A DNA stretch of 64,000 nucleotides from an uncultured Halobacteriovorax sp. (GTDB taxonomy: Bacteria > Bdellovibrionota > Bacteriovoracia > Bacteriovoracales > Bacteriovoracaceae). A program made the position numbers and the translations under genes. The DNA is taken from contig CAJXVS010000001.1 in NCBI GenBank assembly GCA_913061265.1, forward strand, positions 372,001 to 436,000. Reading direction: 5' to 3'. This document shows positions 41,209 through 48,859 of the stretch, one piece after another (within the stretch, counting starts at the first letter, position 1; each line of letters opens with the position of its first letter). Below the pieces are notes generated by a model, which saw nothing but the letters and a program-made list of their open reading frames with translations, searched no databases and had not been told where the DNA came from.

Positions 41209-41574
41209 CTATAGTTTTTTACAAGTCATCTTTGAGTCTTCGATTACTTCTTCACTATCAGCAGTAATAAAAGTTTTAACGATCGAAGATTTATTTTTTC
41301 CACGTCCAGCTAAGATTTTAATAACCGTCTTACTACCTTCACCTTCCGCAACTGAACAAGTTACTTCGAGTTTTCTACTCACAACTTCGAATCCACAATC
41401 TAAGATATCTGTGGCTTCTCCATTTTCGAAGAACTCTACATAAGTATCTCCATCGTTTATTGGTTTAATCTTTAAGACTGTTTCTTTATTGATTGAACAT
41501 GTCTTTCCTTTTTGAGTGCCTGAGGCAAAACTTAAAAGGGGAAAGAGAAGACTTAGGGCCAGTATCATTTTCAT
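41209..41574 (-). CDS. Small secreted protein of unknown function
   Basis: The 121-residue protein has a signal peptide (cut near SFA-S). The mature ~100 residues are beta-rich, contain four Cys (two probable disulfides) and end in KMTCKKL. The family is not recognised. It is convergent with the DUF3750 gene, 3 nt apart. The 228 nt upstream of it hold nothing I recognise. Confidence 0.6.
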   Translation of the reverse strand: MKMILALSLLFPLLSFASGTQKGKTCSINKETVLKIKPINDGDTYVEFFENGEATDILDCGFEVVSRKLEVTCSVAEGEGSKTVIKILAGRGKNKSSIVKTFITADSEEVIEDSKMTCKKL

Positions 41575-41802: not shown

Positions 41803-43605
41803 ATGCTTATAAAGATCCTGATCCTGCTTATTCTTCCCCTCCAAAGTTTCGCCTCTAACAAGATAGTTGGTGGCGTTCTCCCTGGGGAAAAGCACCCCGG
41901 AAAATTTAATACTGTCGCCATGATTCATGCTTCTAGTAAAAAGGTTTTCTGCACCGGCTCTTTGATTTCTAAGACGATGATCCTAACGGCAAAGCACTGC
42001 CTAATAGATAAAGATCCAGCTGATGTCTTAGTCTTCTTTGGAGATGACACACATAAATTGGATCAGGGTTTTATAAGAGAAGTCTCCTCTATGAAAGTAA
42101 GAAGGCCAATAGACTGGGAGATGACCTTTCCTAGTTTTGATGTGGCCTGGATTGAATTAAAAGAAGCGGCACCGTCAAGCTTTCGCCCCCTTCCTATTTT
42201 AAGTTCTAAAATAGAGCTTCCCATTGCCCCAGTTCATCTAGCCGGTCACGGAAATTCCTCCCCAACAAACGGGCAAATTAAAGCAGGGGTTAAGTTCATA
42301 ACGACCACAAACTTAAAGACCTATTATGACAACTCTCGATTTTTCCATATCCTTCTATTTGAAGGCGAAGAAGGACAAGGCGCCTGTCATGGCGATAGTG
42401 GTGGACCTGCTTATATTAAGACTTCAAAAGGCTGGGCCATCATTGGAGTGACTAATGGTTTTGATATAGTTCTTACTCCTAAAGCGATGAAGCGAACGGG
42501 GGATGAGCACTTTCCCTACAGAATTGATTGTAAGAAAAATCAAATGCTTTATTCTTTCGCTGGGGCCCATGGTGCCTGGATTGAAAGAACATCAAAACAA
42601 AAGATCTTAAAGACCAGTGAGTTTAATGAATCCGTTAAGGAGCCTTCAATAGAAATTGAGACTCTCCAAAAATGGTGTAAGAACCCAGACTTCGGCTCCC
42701 CTGCTTGGAACTTTCTAAAGCTCCTCTTAGATAAGAAAGTCGATAAGATGGATCAAAACCTCGCTGAGGGTTTTTATAACGACTGCTCTATGATTGAATC
42801 CTACCTACTCTCCCTTGAGGAAGTTAGGATAGATGGAGAGACCACCGTGGATGCTTCTTATTCAATGGCCCCTCTTCATTTACTAGATTTAAAGACTCTG
42901 AAAATCTATAATTCAGATATTAAGCAATATAGTTTTTCTTCGAATAAAAGGTTCTCCATCGGAAGGTTGGTTCTTAACAGAGTTAACTTAACTGATTTAG
43001 ATGTCCTTAATTTCTCTAACCTCTCCCTTGATGAATTAGACCTTGGAAATAACCCGCTTACCTCTCTTAAGGGTTTAGATAAGTTATCTAGCCTTAAAGG
43101 GATATCTTTATATAGAACCAAAGTTCAAGATTTCTCCCCTCTTAAGAGTTTTAAAATGCTAGAGAAGTTAAACCTCTCTTCTACTCTTCTAGCGAACACT
43201 GAGATCTTAAAGAACTTTAAATTAACTGAGTTATCGATAGGAAGCAGCGATCTTAAAGAGTTAAGTTTTGCTGGGCAAGATAAGCTTGAGGTTCTATCGG
43301 TTCACTCCACTGACTTATTTCACCCAGAGCTTCTTAGTGAGACACCAGGATTACGAGATGCCAATCTTCCTCATTTAGCTATTAAAGACCTCTCCGTGTT
43401 TTCTAGGTTTGAGTTTTCAGATTTAGAGAGTATTAATCTAACGGGGAATCCCATCATTGATCTGAGTTCATTATCTTCTTTGAATGCTCTTGTGAAATTG
43501 AAGTTATTCGGAACGCCGCTAGCAAGAAAAGAAGTAACTAAAACTCCAGAGAATTGTCCTAGAGTAGGACCTGAAGTCTTAGTTAAGTTTTGTTCTATTC
43601 CCTAA
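41803..43605 (+). CDS. Secreted trypsin-like serine protease fused to leucine-rich repeats
   Basis: The 600-residue protein has a signal peptide (cut near FAS-N) directly followed by NKIVGGV, the site where chymotrypsin-family zymogens begin their mature chain; here almost no propeptide is present. The S1 catalytic triad is complete: TAKHC (His65), FDVAWIEL (Asp113) and GACHGDSGGP (Ser199). From about residue 350 to the end there are at least eight leucine-rich repeats (LDELDLGNNPLTSLKGLDKL; LSSLKGISL; LEKLNLSS; LESINLTGNPI). The repeats could select protein substrates. Such a protease may serve prey or host protein digestion (inference). Confidence 0.88.
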   Translation: MLIKILILLILPLQSFASNKIVGGVLPGEKHPGKFNTVAMIHASSKKVFCTGSLISKTMILTAKHCLIDKDPADVLVFFGDDTHKLDQGFIREVSSMKVRRPIDWEMTFPSFDVAWIELKEAAPSSFRPLPILSSKIELPIAPVHLAGHGNSSPTNGQIKAGVKFITTTNLKTYYDNSRFFHILLFEGEEGQGACHGDSGGPAYIKTSKGWAIIGVTNGFDIVLTPKAMKRTGDEHFPYRIDCKKNQMLYSFAGAHGAWIERTSKQKILKTSEFNESVKEPSIEIETLQKWCKNPDFGSPAWNFLKLLLDKKVDKMDQNLAEGFYNDCSMIESYLLSLEEVRIDGETTVDASYSMAPLHLLDLKTLKIYNSDIKQYSFSSNKRFSIGRLVLNRVNLTDLDVLNFSNLSLDELDLGNNPLTSLKGLDKLSSLKGISLYRTKVQDFSPLKSFKMLEKLNLSSTLLANTEILKNFKLTELSIGSSDLKELSFAGQDKLEVLSVHSTDLFHPELLSETPGLRDANLPHLAIKDLSVFSRFEFSDLESINLTGNPIIDLSSLSSLNALVKLKLFGTPLARKEVTKTPENCPRVGPEVLVKFCSIP

Positions 43606-44110
43606 TTCTTGTACGAACCGTATGGCTTCCTACAACGGGGATTTCTTTCATAAGAATCTTTGTTCTAGCAAATCCGATTGATGGGATATCTGGGCAATAA
43701 GTAAAAACACCTACCCACTTATTATCTTTTCTAGGCTTAATTCTCACCTTATGACAGTCATAATGATTGGGAAGATCTGTTCTTCCTAAGTGAGTTAGAG
43801 TTGCGATCTCATCAGTAAGTGATCCGGCTTCTTCTAGTTCTTCATAACCGTATGGGCTTAAGTATTTTGTTGGAAGATCTATACTTGTGGTTCCATCAAG
43901 AGTTCTTTCAAAGAAAAGAAACTTTGCGAAGATATTGTATCTAATCTCCATAGTGAAAGTTTCAGCTAAGATGTTCTTTGTTGTGATCTTAAGTTCGCCT
44001 TTTCTTACAAGAGAATCTTTTTGAACATCGTGAACAATGGTCTCTGGAGTTTGAGCGAGTAGAGGTAAGCTCATTAAAACTACGCATAACGCAGCGAAAA
44101 TTTTTGTCAT
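43595..44110 (-). CDS. Exported beta-rich protein of unknown function
   Basis: The 171-residue protein has a signal peptide (cut near LLA-Q). The mature part is beta-rich, with two Cys that could form one disulfide (YDCHKVRI and FTYCPDI) and several Tyr-containing strands. The family is not recognised. It overlaps the convergent protease gene by 11 nt. Confidence 0.6.
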   Translation of the reverse strand: MTKIFAALCVVLMSLPLLAQTPETIVHDVQKDSLVRKGELKITTKNILAETFTMEIRYNIFAKFLFFERTLDGTTSIDLPTKYLSPYGYEELEEAGSLTDEIATLTHLGRTDLPNHYDCHKVRIKPRKDNKWVGVFTYCPDIPSIGFARTKILMKEIPVVGSHTVRTRIRE

Positions 44111-44217: not shown

Positions 44218-47200
44218 TTAATAATACTGGCGCGAAGAGATAAGGGATTTCTTAGGAGTAGCCGCTCTCTTTGAGGCGAGGTTACTAATGGAGGCGACCT
44301 CCTCTTTAAGAGGATAGAAAAAGTTCACCAAGATAGAGCGGTAGTCCCCGGCCATTTGAAGCTCTCCATTTACGCAAAGAAAGCTCGAAGACTCGATCAC
44401 TTCATAAAAGGCTGCGTACTTATAAGGATGAACGGCCAAGTTGATAAAGCCCGTCTCATCTTCCATGGTGATAAAGACCATGCCTTTTGCTGTGGGAGGC
44501 GATTGCTTGACTCTGACCATGCCAAAAACATTCACATTCTTATTCTCCCTAATAGCTTGAAGCCCAGCGGAGAGGCTTAAGTCTTTTAACTTAAGAGGAT
44601 AATTCCAGCTCTCCTCGCGGATAATCCTAACCGGGTGATCATCAAGAGAAGTATTCATCGATGAAAAGTCTTTCATGACTTTCTCCATTCTTCCTTCCAT
44701 GCCCCAGTCTATATTCTTTTCTTCCCCGTCGATCATAGGCTTAAAAGGAACCGCTTCACTCATCCAAAGCGCGTTAGAGCGGTCCAGGTTAAAGTCTTTA
44801 TAAGCGTCCGCTGCCGCAAGGGCCGTTAGGTCATCACGGTAGAGAGCTGTGTCTTTAATAAAGCTATCAAAAGAATTCCATCCGCCTTTCTTTGACCTAA
44901 GAAGAACAAGAGACTTGGCCCCCGAAGTTGAAAGCTTGTTCACAAGGCGAAGCCCCATCCGGATGGCGTTCTTACCAAAGTGTTTTTCTAGTTTAGAATC
45001 ATAGTCTGAATGATTCACGCAAGGAGGCAGGACCTCAACTCCCTCTTGCTTTGCCGCTTGCAGAAGATTGTGAGGAGAATAAAAGCCCATGGGCTGCGAA
45101 TTTAAGACCGAGGTAAAGAAAGCCGCCGGGTAATGGCATTTTAAATAGCAAGAGGCGTAGGCGATAAAGGCAAAAGAGATGGCGTGGGACTCAGGAAAGC
45201 CATAGTCAGAGAAGCCCTTCATCTGGCCTAAGATCTGATCGATAAAATAATCATCAAAGCCCTTTCTTTTCATCCCAGCTTTTAGTTTTTCCATCCAAGG
45301 GCCAAGGGTTTGATCAAAGTCTCTTACATTCCAGGCCCCAATATTCCGGCGCAGTTCATTCGCCTCTCCTGCCGTAAAATCCCCGACTTCAACGGCGATA
45401 CGCATGGCCTGTTCTTGAAAGATGGCGATGCCAAGAGTTCTCTTTAAGATAGGTTCTAGACAAGGATCGGGATAGGTCACCGCTTCGATGCCATCTCTTC
45501 TTCGAAGATAAGGGTGAATAACCTTGCCTTGAATAGGCCCTGGCCTAATGATGGCGACTTCAACCACAAGATCATAGAAGCACTTGGGCTTAAGCCTTGG
45601 AAGCATAGTCATCTGGGCGCGGGATTCAATCTGAAAGACCCCCACAGTTTCGGCCCTTTGAATCATGGCGTAGGTTTTCTTATCATCGTGAGGAATATCA
45701 TAGAGCCCATAGTGCTTGCCGTAGGATTCTTTAACATAATGAAAGCATTTTCTAATCGCTGAGAGCATGCCAAGAGCTAGGATATCAATCTTAAAGAAAC
45801 CAAGGCCTTCAATATCATCCTTACTCCATTGAATAACTGTCCTTCCTTCCATAGTGGCGGGCTCCTGGGGAACTAAGTGATCGAGGTCTTTTCCCGCAAT
45901 GATAAAACCACCGGAGTGAACTCCCATATGACGAGGGAAACCTTTAAGCGCCTCACTAAAATGAATCCAAGCTTCGAAGGAAATATTAAGCTCTAACTCC
46001 TCACATTCTTTTCGCAAACGAAGAAGGAGAAAGTCATTACTGGCCCCTCTAAAGAGGCGGGTCTTTTGTAGATCAGTGGCCTTCTTTAAAACAAATTCAG
46101 GAACCCCGAGGGCCTTACCGACCGCGCGCATAGATCCTTTTTGGCGGAAGGTGATAATATTGGCCACCATCGCTGCGCGCGATCTGCCATAGCGCTCATA
46201 GATGTATTGAATGACTTCTTCGCGCCGCTCATGTTCAAAGTCCACGTCAATATCAGGGGGGTCTCCCCTCTCTTCGCTGATAAAACGCTCAAGGAGAAGT
46301 TCAAACTGATTAGGGTCAATGGAAGTGATCTCAAGAGCAAAGCAAACAATAGAGTTCGCGGCTGAGCCTCTGCCCTGACAAAGAATATCTTGCGAGCGCG
46401 CCCAGCGCACGATATCCCACACCGTTAAGAAGTAATCGGGAAAGTTTAATTTTCGAATCAGTTTTAATTCCCGCCATACCTTATCTTGTAAGGCCTCGTT
46501 AAAATCATTCCCAAGACGGCGCTGCATATTTTCAAGGACAATCTTTTCTAAGAACTCTTGGGAGGTAAAGCCACTTGGGATCATCTCCCCTGGGTATTTA
46601 TACTTAAGTTCATCAAAGCTAAAATCAATCCTCTCCGCTAGGTAGAGGGAATCTCTAATGGAGCGCTCATAGATAGGAAGCTTAGAGAAAAGAAACTCAA
46701 GACCATTTAGTGAATGAAGATGCCTCTCCCCGTTAGGAAAGAGGTGCTGATCACAGGAGCCCACGGGAAGATTTGTTCTAATAGAGTGAAGAAGATCATT
46801 AAGATTCTTTCTCTCCCTTGAATGAAAGAAAGCATCTTGAGTTAATAAAGTGGGCAGCTCTAAAGTTTTAGAGAGGTTTAAACTCTCCCCAATCCAAGCA
46901 TCTTCAGCCGGGTGAAGATGACGGCTTATGCCTAAGTAAAGTCCTTCATGAAAGATGTTCTTAAGCTTCTCTAAGTCCTGCTCCCCTCTGCCTTCACGAA
47001 TCCTTCCCCGCATGGGCCTAATGGCCACGATGCCTCTGGTATTACAGTTTTCAAGGTCAGTGGTAGAGAGGAAGGCCTCAGTCTTTGAAGCAATATGCGC
47101 CTTACTAAAGATCTTACACATATTCATATAACCGATCTTATTTAAAGCAACCAAGGCAATAGTTTGTTGCAAGAGAACAGGCCTACCATGATCTTGATAA

Positions 47201-47439
47201 AGATGAAGCTCTCCGCCGTAGTGAAGCTTAAGCCTACTATCGATGATCTTCTCTTTTAGATTAAGATGCGCCCGCGCCAAACCATAAACCCCATCAAAGT
47301 CATTGATGCATAAGGATTGATAGCGCTGATAGCTCGCCTCCTCTAACATCTCAAGTGGATGAGAGGCTCCTGTTAAAAAACTAAAATTGGTCTTGGCGAG
47401 CCACTCATGATGGCCGGCCCCGTTAAGAGAATAGCCCAT
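44218..47439 (-). CDS. dnaE2: Error-prone DNA polymerase III alpha subunit (DnaE2/ImuC)
   Basis: The start at MGYSLNGAG is preferred because GGGGAGG lies 11 nt upstream; a start 63 nt earlier lacks a site and extends further into imuB. The 1073 residues match DnaE2. An N-terminal PHP domain is seen (NFSFLTGASHP), the catalytic Asp pair in PDIDVDF near residue 398, the third Asp in FFKIDILALG near 550, then helix-hairpin-helix and OB regions (VNVFGMVRVKQSPP). DnaE2 works with ImuA and ImuB in mutagenic lesion bypass. It is third in an imuA-imuB-dnaE2 operon, its start overlapping the imuB end by 17 nt. Confidence 0.93.
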   Translation of the reverse strand: MGYSLNGAGHHEWLAKTNFSFLTGASHPLEMLEEASYQRYQSLCINDFDGVYGLARAHLNLKEKIIDSRLKLHYGGELHLYQDHGRPVLLQQTIALVALNKIGYMNMCKIFSKAHIASKTEAFLSTTDLENCNTRGIVAIRPMRGRIREGRGEQDLEKLKNIFHEGLYLGISRHLHPAEDAWIGESLNLSKTLELPTLLTQDAFFHSRERKNLNDLLHSIRTNLPVGSCDQHLFPNGERHLHSLNGLEFLFSKLPIYERSIRDSLYLAERIDFSFDELKYKYPGEMIPSGFTSQEFLEKIVLENMQRRLGNDFNEALQDKVWRELKLIRKLNFPDYFLTVWDIVRWARSQDILCQGRGSAANSIVCFALEITSIDPNQFELLLERFISEERGDPPDIDVDFEHERREEVIQYIYERYGRSRAAMVANIITFRQKGSMRAVGKALGVPEFVLKKATDLQKTRLFRGASNDFLLLRLRKECEELELNISFEAWIHFSEALKGFPRHMGVHSGGFIIAGKDLDHLVPQEPATMEGRTVIQWSKDDIEGLGFFKIDILALGMLSAIRKCFHYVKESYGKHYGLYDIPHDDKKTYAMIQRAETVGVFQIESRAQMTMLPRLKPKCFYDLVVEVAIIRPGPIQGKVIHPYLRRRDGIEAVTYPDPCLEPILKRTLGIAIFQEQAMRIAVEVGDFTAGEANELRRNIGAWNVRDFDQTLGPWMEKLKAGMKRKGFDDYFIDQILGQMKGFSDYGFPESHAISFAFIAYASCYLKCHYPAAFFTSVLNSQPMGFYSPHNLLQAAKQEGVEVLPPCVNHSDYDSKLEKHFGKNAIRMGLRLVNKLSTSGAKSLVLLRSKKGGWNSFDSFIKDTALYRDDLTALAAADAYKDFNLDRSNALWMSEAVPFKPMIDGEEKNIDWGMEGRMEKVMKDFSSMNTSLDDHPVRIIREESWNYPLKLKDLSLSAGLQAIRENKNVNVFGMVRVKQSPPTAKGMVFITMEDETGFINLAVHPYKYAAFYEVIESSSFLCVNGELQMAGDYRSILVNFFYPLKEEVASISNLASKRAATPKKSLISSRQYY

Positions 47440-48859
47440 GCTTAAACCATCCTCCCCTGGGGTCTTGAAAGGCCCACCACATAAGGCCTTCCTTATCTTC
47501 AATTAAATAATAATCCCTATCCCCAAGATGAGGATCACTTCCTCCCCACCATAAGGACGCCACCCGCTCTAGAAAGGTTCTTTTATAATTTCCCTCTAAG
47601 ATCAAGGGCTCGATCTTATTAAAGATAAAAAGAGGCTTTCGTTTAGAGGCCATGAGCCAAGGGAGTTTTTCCCCAAGGTATTCTTCATTGCTTTTTCCAA
47701 AGGAAGTCTCTGGAAAGAAACTTGCCTTTAAGGCGTAGTGATCAAGACTCAGAGGCAATTTATTTTCCATCTCAAGCCTTAGACTACTGACCCCTCCAGT
47801 GAGAAGATCTTCATTCTTAGGAGAGAGGCGAAGAGATTCGCTTATCATAAATTTCCAGCCTACCGTGGCCATGCGAAGAGGATAATCAAGATCCTCTTCC
47901 CTGCTCTCAACTTTTTTCATCATTTCAAGGTAGGAATAATAAGCTTGAAATAAAAAGGTTTCAAAATCAGGGGCATCAGTTGTTAATGAATGAGGGTTTC
48001 TAAAGACGATCTTACATGAGTGAACCTCTAAGCTCTCAAGGCTTACTTCCCAGTCAACCCGGCTGACCTTCTTATGTTTTAGTTCAGGATGATTCTTTAA
48101 CAACTTTAAAAGGTCTTCCTTAATAAAATCCGAGAACTGATCCCATTCAAGAAGAGGATAATCCAAGAAGCGCGTGACTTCAGGCAGCTCTCCTTTTTCA
48201 ATCTCATGCCAAGGGAAACTAGTATCAAAGGAGTCAAAGTTTGTTTGAAACAGATCCCCTTGCGTTGCCTCGAAGGTTCCTGATCTAAAGCCCGAAAAGC
48301 TCCAATGCCAAACCCTGCCTAGCCACTTTCCGAAGCGGCGCTCGAGAGAGTCTTGTTTTATTGAAGATAATTCAAAGGGCCTCGTGATCTTCATCCTCTC
48401 CACAAAACGCTCAAAGCGCCCAATCATACGCCCATATTCACTTTGATCTTTAGCTGGAAGATGCGCTCTTAGTTGCCATAAGAGCTTATGCCAATGTTCA
48501 AAGCTTTGATGACGATAGTACTGATCCCCTTGGGGGGTTCCAAGGCAGGTAAAGTCCTCTTTTTGATTCTCTAACATAAGAACGCATTGAAAAGGATGAT
48601 GAGCAAAACAAAACTTCTGATCTCCGAAGACCTTCTTAAGAAAGTCTTCAAAAAAAGGAAGAAGCTCCTCTTCCCCGGCGCTCCACTTCCAATAATTAAG
48701 AACATTCTTAAGATCAATTAATAAAAGACCATCGCTAAAGCGCATAAGCCTAGTCCCTACTTCAAAACCAAGATCTGGATCAAAGTCACCTTTGATTCCA
48801 AGGAAGGCAGGAAGCTCTATACCTCTTTTTAAATGATGTTTTAAGGAGATAACACTCAC
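47423..48859 (-). CDS. imuB: ImuB, catalytically dead Y-family polymerase-like protein
   Basis: The 478-residue protein is strongly diverged and recognised by context and by its C-terminus (RKPLFIFNKIEPLIL, then WWGGSDPHLGDRDYYLIED, then GGWFKHGLF), which is typical of ImuB. The acidic residues needed for polymerase activity are not evident in the N-terminal half, as expected for this family. A QGDLF motif near residue 205 is a good candidate beta-clamp-binding site. ImuB is thought to tether ImuA and DnaE2 to the clamp. It overlaps imuA as ATGA and dnaE2 by 17 nt. Confidence 0.82.
   Translation of the reverse strand: MSVISLKHHLKRGIELPAFLGIKGDFDPDLGFEVGTRLMRFSDGLLLIDLKNVLNYWKWSAGEEELLPFFEDFLKKVFGDQKFCFAHHPFQCVLMLENQKEDFTCLGTPQGDQYYRHQSFEHWHKLLWQLRAHLPAKDQSEYGRMIGRFERFVERMKITRPFELSSIKQDSLERRFGKWLGRVWHWSFSGFRSGTFEATQGDLFQTNFDSFDTSFPWHEIEKGELPEVTRFLDYPLLEWDQFSDFIKEDLLKLLKNHPELKHKKVSRVDWEVSLESLEVHSCKIVFRNPHSLTTDAPDFETFLFQAYYSYLEMMKKVESREEDLDYPLRMATVGWKFMISESLRLSPKNEDLLTGGVSSLRLEMENKLPLSLDHYALKASFFPETSFGKSNEEYLGEKLPWLMASKRKPLFIFNKIEPLILEGNYKRTFLERVASLWWGGSDPHLGDRDYYLIEDKEGLMWWAFQDPRGGWFKHGLFS

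Follow-up and report, generated by a model that had tools for sequence, protein, structure and literature searches.

Background

Animals commonly possess S1-fold proteases that include an arm for protein recognition, such as the clotting and complement proteases. In the bacteria surveyed so far, the S1 fold is paired mainly with PDZ domains; the available part of a 2008 survey of prokaryotes (PMC2605481) gives S1 with PDZ as the commonest such pairing, and leucine-rich repeats (LRRs) are not mentioned in a survey of serine-protease architectures in prokaryotes. In the Bdellovibrio group, a lysine-specific protease of the S1 fold, BspK (Bd1962), has been described from Bdellovibrio bacteriovorus. 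According to the available portion of that report (PMC5288813), BspK cleaves itself after K28 and K210, S230 is its catalytic residue, and a zymogen role was raised by its authors. The accessible parts of two further papers (PMC6510308 and PMC12546842) deal with other Bdellovibrio proteases, and the terms LRR and trypsin are both absent from PMC11656739. No description of a bacterial S1-LRR fusion was found in the open-licence literature.

The current work concerns such a fusion in a stretch of 64,000 nucleotides from an uncultured Halobacteriovorax sp., referred to below as the window. Our preferred reading, to which a probability of about 0.5 is given, is that the gene product is a secreted protease of chymotrypsin fold which is synthesized as a minimal zymogen, is gated by a lysine and carries a tethered internalin/SDS22-like arm that places it on a partner.

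Gene and domain organization

The gene (41803-43605, plus strand) is a single open frame running from ATG to TAA and encoding 600 aa, in which both Pfam Trypsin (PF00089, residues 31-218, E 2.1e-18) and LRR_4 (E 2.7e-8, 4 stretches, the best at 408-449) pass the curated cut-offs. The protein starts with a probable signal peptide (residues 1-17; 41803-41853), judged by the -3/-1 rule with cleavage assumed after A17, and is predicted to be secreted, as the initial annotation had proposed. The tripeptide S18-N19-K20 (41854-41862) follows, and the sequence IVGG begins at residue 21. We regard the tripeptide as a minimal propeptide and K20-I21 as the proposed activation bond.

The S1 domain of chymotrypsin fold covers residues 21-268 (41863-42606), as defined by Pfam, alignment and fold match. 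Alignments place an insert some 20 residues long (221-242; 42463-42528) between position 216 and Cys220, where it adjoins the specificity pocket and carries a conserved FDxxLTPxxMxxTxDxxFPY-like stretch. This loop is found in only part of the family, and the AlphaFold2 model has low confidence at residues 221-229. Behind the protease there is a variable linker (residues 269-287; 42607-42663), with 16-42% identity across seven g1/g13 orthologues, and then a helical LRR N-cap (42664-42837), seen as helices in the model and conserved in the alignment, in which C292 and C328 probably form a disulfide.

Ten leucine-rich repeats (42889-43557) are supported by Pfam, by the LxxLxL count and by the model. 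Placed in register by hand, the units start at residues 363, 386, 409, 431, 453, 474, 495, 517, 541 and 563 with a spacing of 21-24, in agreement with the earlier count of at least eight. In the strict form, the LxxLxL pattern is found 8 times in the protein; 2000 shuffled versions contained it 2.4 times on average, and 0.2% of them reached 8. The protein ends in a C-terminal cap (43555-43602) with C585 and C597 (ENCP...FC), which is nearly invariant in the alignment and appears as the final helix in the model.

Both flanking genes (41209-41574 and 43595-44110) are located on the opposite strand, so the S1-LRR gene stands alone. The second of these (minus strand) encodes a secreted-looking protein of 171 aa without a Pfam match, and it overlaps the S1-LRR gene tail to tail by 11 bases. 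Farther along, at 44218-48859 (minus strand), a DnaE2-like polymerase gene adjoins, by eye, an ImuB-like gene, a pair which we take to be the usual mutagenesis cassette. A scan of the S1-LRR gene for promoters and terminators gave no more sites than were found in shuffled sequences.

Catalytic site and specificity

The S1 triad, reported as complete by the initial annotation, consists of H65 (TAKHC), D113 (FPSFDVAW) and S199 (GDSGGP), and all three residues are invariant across 10 aligned sequences. D198, which corresponds to Asp194, and the cap cysteines are also conserved in this alignment. I21 of the I-V-G-G terminus aligns with residue 16 in the fold matches. The features of the S1A family are therefore present: the triad in its TAxHC, D and GDSGGP contexts, and an Ile16-type N-terminus with its Asp194 partner. 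Among the 12 PF00089 matches in the genome of the window, GDSGG was seen only in this protein (11 of the 12 were read out, the C8 match being left out).

Chymotrypsin position 189, counted from GDSGGP, is occupied by Gly193, and a preference for Lys or Arg is therefore not expected of the enzyme. Of the fused relatives L057-L068, 12 in number, 11 likewise have Gly at this position and L068 has Ser. Trypsin specificity, which depends on Asp at 189 and means cleavage after Arg or Lys, is ruled out by the Gly at the pocket floor. The earlier term "trypsin-like" thus holds for the fold and fails for the specificity. In another group of S1 proteins of the family (L036:1375-3045 and L037:1321-3006, both plus strand, about 560 aa), position 189 is Asp; helical and ankyrin-like repeats, recognized by eye, stand behind the protease and make up a second kind of S1-repeat fusion.

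The residue preceding the mature terminus

The window protein and all seven close orthologues (L057-L063) have Lys as the residue before the mature terminus (P1), always in front of I-[IV]-x-G. Because this conserved Lys precedes the mature end in 8 of 8 sequences, the protein is likely to be made as a zymogen. The short spacer ending in Lys would then be a trypsinogen-like activation bond in miniature, at which the putative cleavage would occur. The initial annotation had found no classic zymogen; for this clade that is probably wrong.

Another explanation is that SNK is a spacer without a gating role, and that the protein is matured by signal peptidase or any exopeptidase and is born active. 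This is possible, if somewhat doubtful. It is favoured by the diverged fused proteins L064, L065, L066 and, by eye, L067, in which the mature chain starts straight after an A-x-A-like signal-peptidase site with no Lys between; these would mature by signal peptidase alone. It is opposed by the pattern among the 8 close orthologues, where P1 Lys is invariant and the residues ahead of it vary, and by the rarity of Lys at this position elsewhere. In 70 other S1 open reading frames of related loci, Lys was counted 2 times and Arg 2 times, by a regular expression that visibly mis-picked L067 and several other rows and left 12 frames without the motif or HxC. The related loci had been picked by a CHGDSGGP or TAKHC-type pattern, and the His192 seen in them is partly due to this construction. 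Among other fused proteins, Lys is found at the position in G060 and is absent in G003 and G119. Since L064-L067 lack the Lys, gating would be limited to one clade.

BspK-like proteases

A Lys directly before the mature terminus also occurs in BspK. The record which matches BspK at K28, K210 and S230 (L137:841-1710, plus strand) reads K28-VIYG; K28 is therefore the bond before the BspK mature N-terminus, and this suggests that the K28 cut is an activation cleavage.

The window genome contains four BspK-like paralogues, 34-45% identical to that record, and three of them have Lys at the corresponding site. Two of the genes are located side by side (G000:C5:168847-171327; L004 and L006). They are separate genes from the fusion, in which the BspK-family motif GGNSGS is absent and GDSGGP stands instead. 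Self-activation of the window protein at K20 is unlikely, its pocket being not of the Lys type. Co-occurrence of BspK as a test of a cascade was uninformative, since BspK-like genes were found in 18 of 18 genomes tested. Genomes without the P1 Lys were included among these, so the presence of BspK is permissive and not diagnostic.

Structure of the leucine-rich arm

The AlphaFold2 model of the whole protein has a mean pLDDT of 87.0 and a pTM of 0.80, and residues 281-600 modelled alone form an LRR solenoid (pLDDT 92.6, pTM 0.87). The N-terminal part of the model matches proteinase 3 (1fuj) with Z 27.7 (211 aligned, rmsd 2.2). The C-terminal part matches InlF (4fmz) with Z 20.8 (281 aligned, rmsd 5.4) over residues 7-320 of that part. 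SDS22 gives a Z of about 20, within 1 of InlF, and the internalin match should be read only as likeness of the modelled fold, in which SDS22 ties. In sequence comparison, the best-matching LRR relatives of solved structure are a Chlorobium Roco protein and the internalins. The internalin features of about 22-residue LRRs behind a helical N-cap are found in the window protein; the Pfam scan found no Ig-like inter-repeat domain after the LRRs, the protein ending after its C-cap.

Degeneration of the LRR part, which had been named as a reason to doubt the fusion, is rejected by the Pfam LRR_4 match, by the excess of LxxLxL over shuffles and by the confident solenoid model. Within the genus, conservation is 0.48 on the concave face and 0.40 on the convex face of the solenoid. 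Since the concave face shows neither clear conservation nor hypervariability, it cannot be singled out as a binding surface, and surface conservation is a weak pointer to the ligand face. One other LRR protein of the window genome (L052:17-4060, plus strand; G000:C1:538500-544000) has 1347 aa, a DUF4842 domain and many LRRs, with DUF4114 just under its Pfam cut-off.

Loss of the protease domain

In genus g13, the locus of the fusion is syntenic in seven species, and the S1 domain is gone in two of them (G035 and G036). In these S1-less orthologues of the g13 fusions, a signal peptide is joined straight to the cap and the LRRs among the same neighbours, and both LRR parts pass Pfam. The initial annotation had proposed that two separate genes in close relatives would point to mis-assembly; in these relatives without the fusion, the S1 domain is missing and is not encoded next door.

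G036 and the fused G033 form a pair, with support of 84/92 in the tree of the LRR part and 100/99 in that of the concatenated locus. The hypothesis that the two S1-less forms arose once is rejected by the concatenated locus (p-AU 1e-6) and not rejected by the LRR gene alone (p-AU 0.098). The protease has apparently been lost twice in g13, as these sequences indicate, with the secreted LRR part kept. The retention of the LRR part without a protease in two species indicates that the repeats have not degenerated and that they probably have a binding function by themselves.

These forms bear on the view that the arm is an intramolecular regulator, which would pack on the protease and restrain or support the active site with no external partner. 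The pTM of the two-domain model suggests a fairly fixed arrangement, and the pocket-side loop carried by part of the family could contact the arm. Two species, however, keep the LRRs with no protease left to regulate, and the linker is variable; such a regulator is unlikely.

A further view takes the LRRs as the main element, a secreted adhesin or receptor to which a protease for general nutrition happens to be attached. The survival of the LRR part alone in two species and its internalin-like fold would agree with this, but among the large parts S1 is conserved best, with identities within the genus of 73% and 72% against 45% and 37% for the LRR, and we hold this view to be quite improbable. 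Against g13 the corresponding identities are 53-55% and 31-34%. The better conservation of S1 suggests that, where S1 is present, catalysis is under stronger constraint than the arm. Faster divergence of the LRRs is what would be expected if targets differ by species; plain structural tolerance would look alike.

Distribution of the fusion

Within the family (129 genomes), full-length fusions were found in two congeneric species (60% and 56% identity) and in five species of g13 (41-43%). A profile match spanning protease and LRRs was detected in at least 15 of 368 Bdellovibrionota genomes from two families. Among the matches listed, those of family f1 are G000 (the window genome), G037, G038, G030-G034, G119, G003 and G060, and those of family f10 are G235, G238, G241 and G227, the last being cut by a contig end. 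Ten of the 15 fused genomes had supplied the search profile. G047, in which S1 passes the cut-off and Pfam finds no LRR, was left out of this count. Pfam found both Trypsin and LRR in all five distant fused members scanned (L047, L048, L064, L066 and L067).

In a scan of named genomes, a single-protein query found nothing and an alignment query recovered L057-L068. These belong to Halobacteriovorax, Bacteriovoracaceae, Bdellovibrionales and the like, and all 12 are labelled as MAG. In Myxococcota, none of 282 genomes matched at E 1e-25 with the profile that does find the Bdellovibrionota fusions. Plasmid records gave only weak matches in 8 records, to the S1 half alone.

The presence of the same fusion in separate assemblies and different gene contexts refutes the notion of two neighbouring genes joined by an assembly error or a chance fusion, the probability of which is negligible. 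The window gene is thus confirmed, as first annotated, to be one intact gene, not two, for an S1 protease with LRRs that is predicted to be secreted, and its LRR part is not degenerate. Because fusions with the same cap turn up in several groups, we assume the fused state to be ancestral. The architecture is uncommon, as had been supposed, and is a lineage-restricted new combination of known parts.

The immediate neighbours of the window gene differ from those of G037 and G038, and a target is therefore not suggested by any operon partner. Four genes at 49.6-60.6 kb of the window are located at most 7 kb from the G037 fusion gene, and the neighbours of the g13 locus are conserved only within g13.

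Some variants of the architecture were also observed. In G060, the signal peptide of the fused protein (L048:4602-7121, minus strand; 839 aa) contains a lipobox-like Cys, and a further cap-like segment is recognized by eye behind the first block of LRRs; the protein is possibly an envelope-anchored variant. In G003 (L046:5329-6852, minus strand), a diverged S1-LRR with shortened LRRs is present, and its profile match crosses in-frame TGA codons.

Proposed mode of action

According to the reading of a lysine-gated protease guided by its arm, the signal peptide would direct export, and signal peptidase would cut near A17. The K20-I21 bond would then be cut by a protease that is secreted and Lys-specific; the most likely candidates are the four BspK-like enzymes of the same genome, proposed because BspK cuts at the matching K28 bond and four paralogues are present. 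Judged from the conserved residues and the published behaviour of BspK, Ile21 would be freed to pair with Asp198, and the active site would thereby form. The capped LRR solenoid may bind a partner protein and hold the protease beside its substrate, and selectivity would come more from the arm than from the non-tryptic pocket. Targeting of the protease by the LRRs is plausible, and an independent binding role of the repeats is supported by the orthologues which have lost S1. Judged from the lineage, the protein would be likely to act at the cell surface, or on the envelope of prey or of bacteria nearby.

A two-tier cascade may also be considered, in which a self-activating enzyme of the BspK type (K28|VIYG) cuts the conserved K|I[IV]xG bond of the LRR-guided protease and so switches it on, the LRRs select its target, and the arm alone serves as a secreted binder or competitor in two lineages. 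This extension is tentative and appears doubtful.

With its internalin-like arm, such an S1 protease would be an example of a guided protease made by nature. Should the Lys gate prove real, a secreted zymogen cascade would exist in the Bdellovibrio group, and the fusion would be a candidate natural substrate for BspK, which according to published work cuts antibodies as well as itself. The natural protease-less versions let the arm be studied alone.

Comparison with known systems

The window protein resembles S1A proteases such as proteinase 3 in its fold, triad, I-V-G-G N-terminus and Asp194, and in the cysteines at chymotrypsin positions 42, 58, 191 and 220. It differs from chymotrypsin and elastase in the insertion before Cys220, the LRR arm and Gly189.

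With HtrA/DegP the protein shares an S1-fold protease followed by a C-terminal protein-binding module. In HtrA/DegP this module is PDZ, whereas the Pfam scan found no PDZ domain in the window protein, which has LRRs, GDSGGP and a zymogen-type N-terminus. Repeats of about 22 residues are shared with the Listeria internalins (InlF, InlA) and SDS22-like proteins, and the helical N-cap with the internalins. Unlike internalins, the LRRs here stand behind a protease, have cysteine-bearing caps and belong to a Gram-negative organism, and no anchor was found after them.

BspK is likewise a secreted chymotrypsin-fold protease of the same phylum, with a Lys directly before V-I-Y-G as the window protein has one before I-V-G-G. 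BspK, however, is a single-domain enzyme with GGNSGS that cuts after Lys, whereas the window protein combines GDSGGP and Gly at 189 with an LRR arm.
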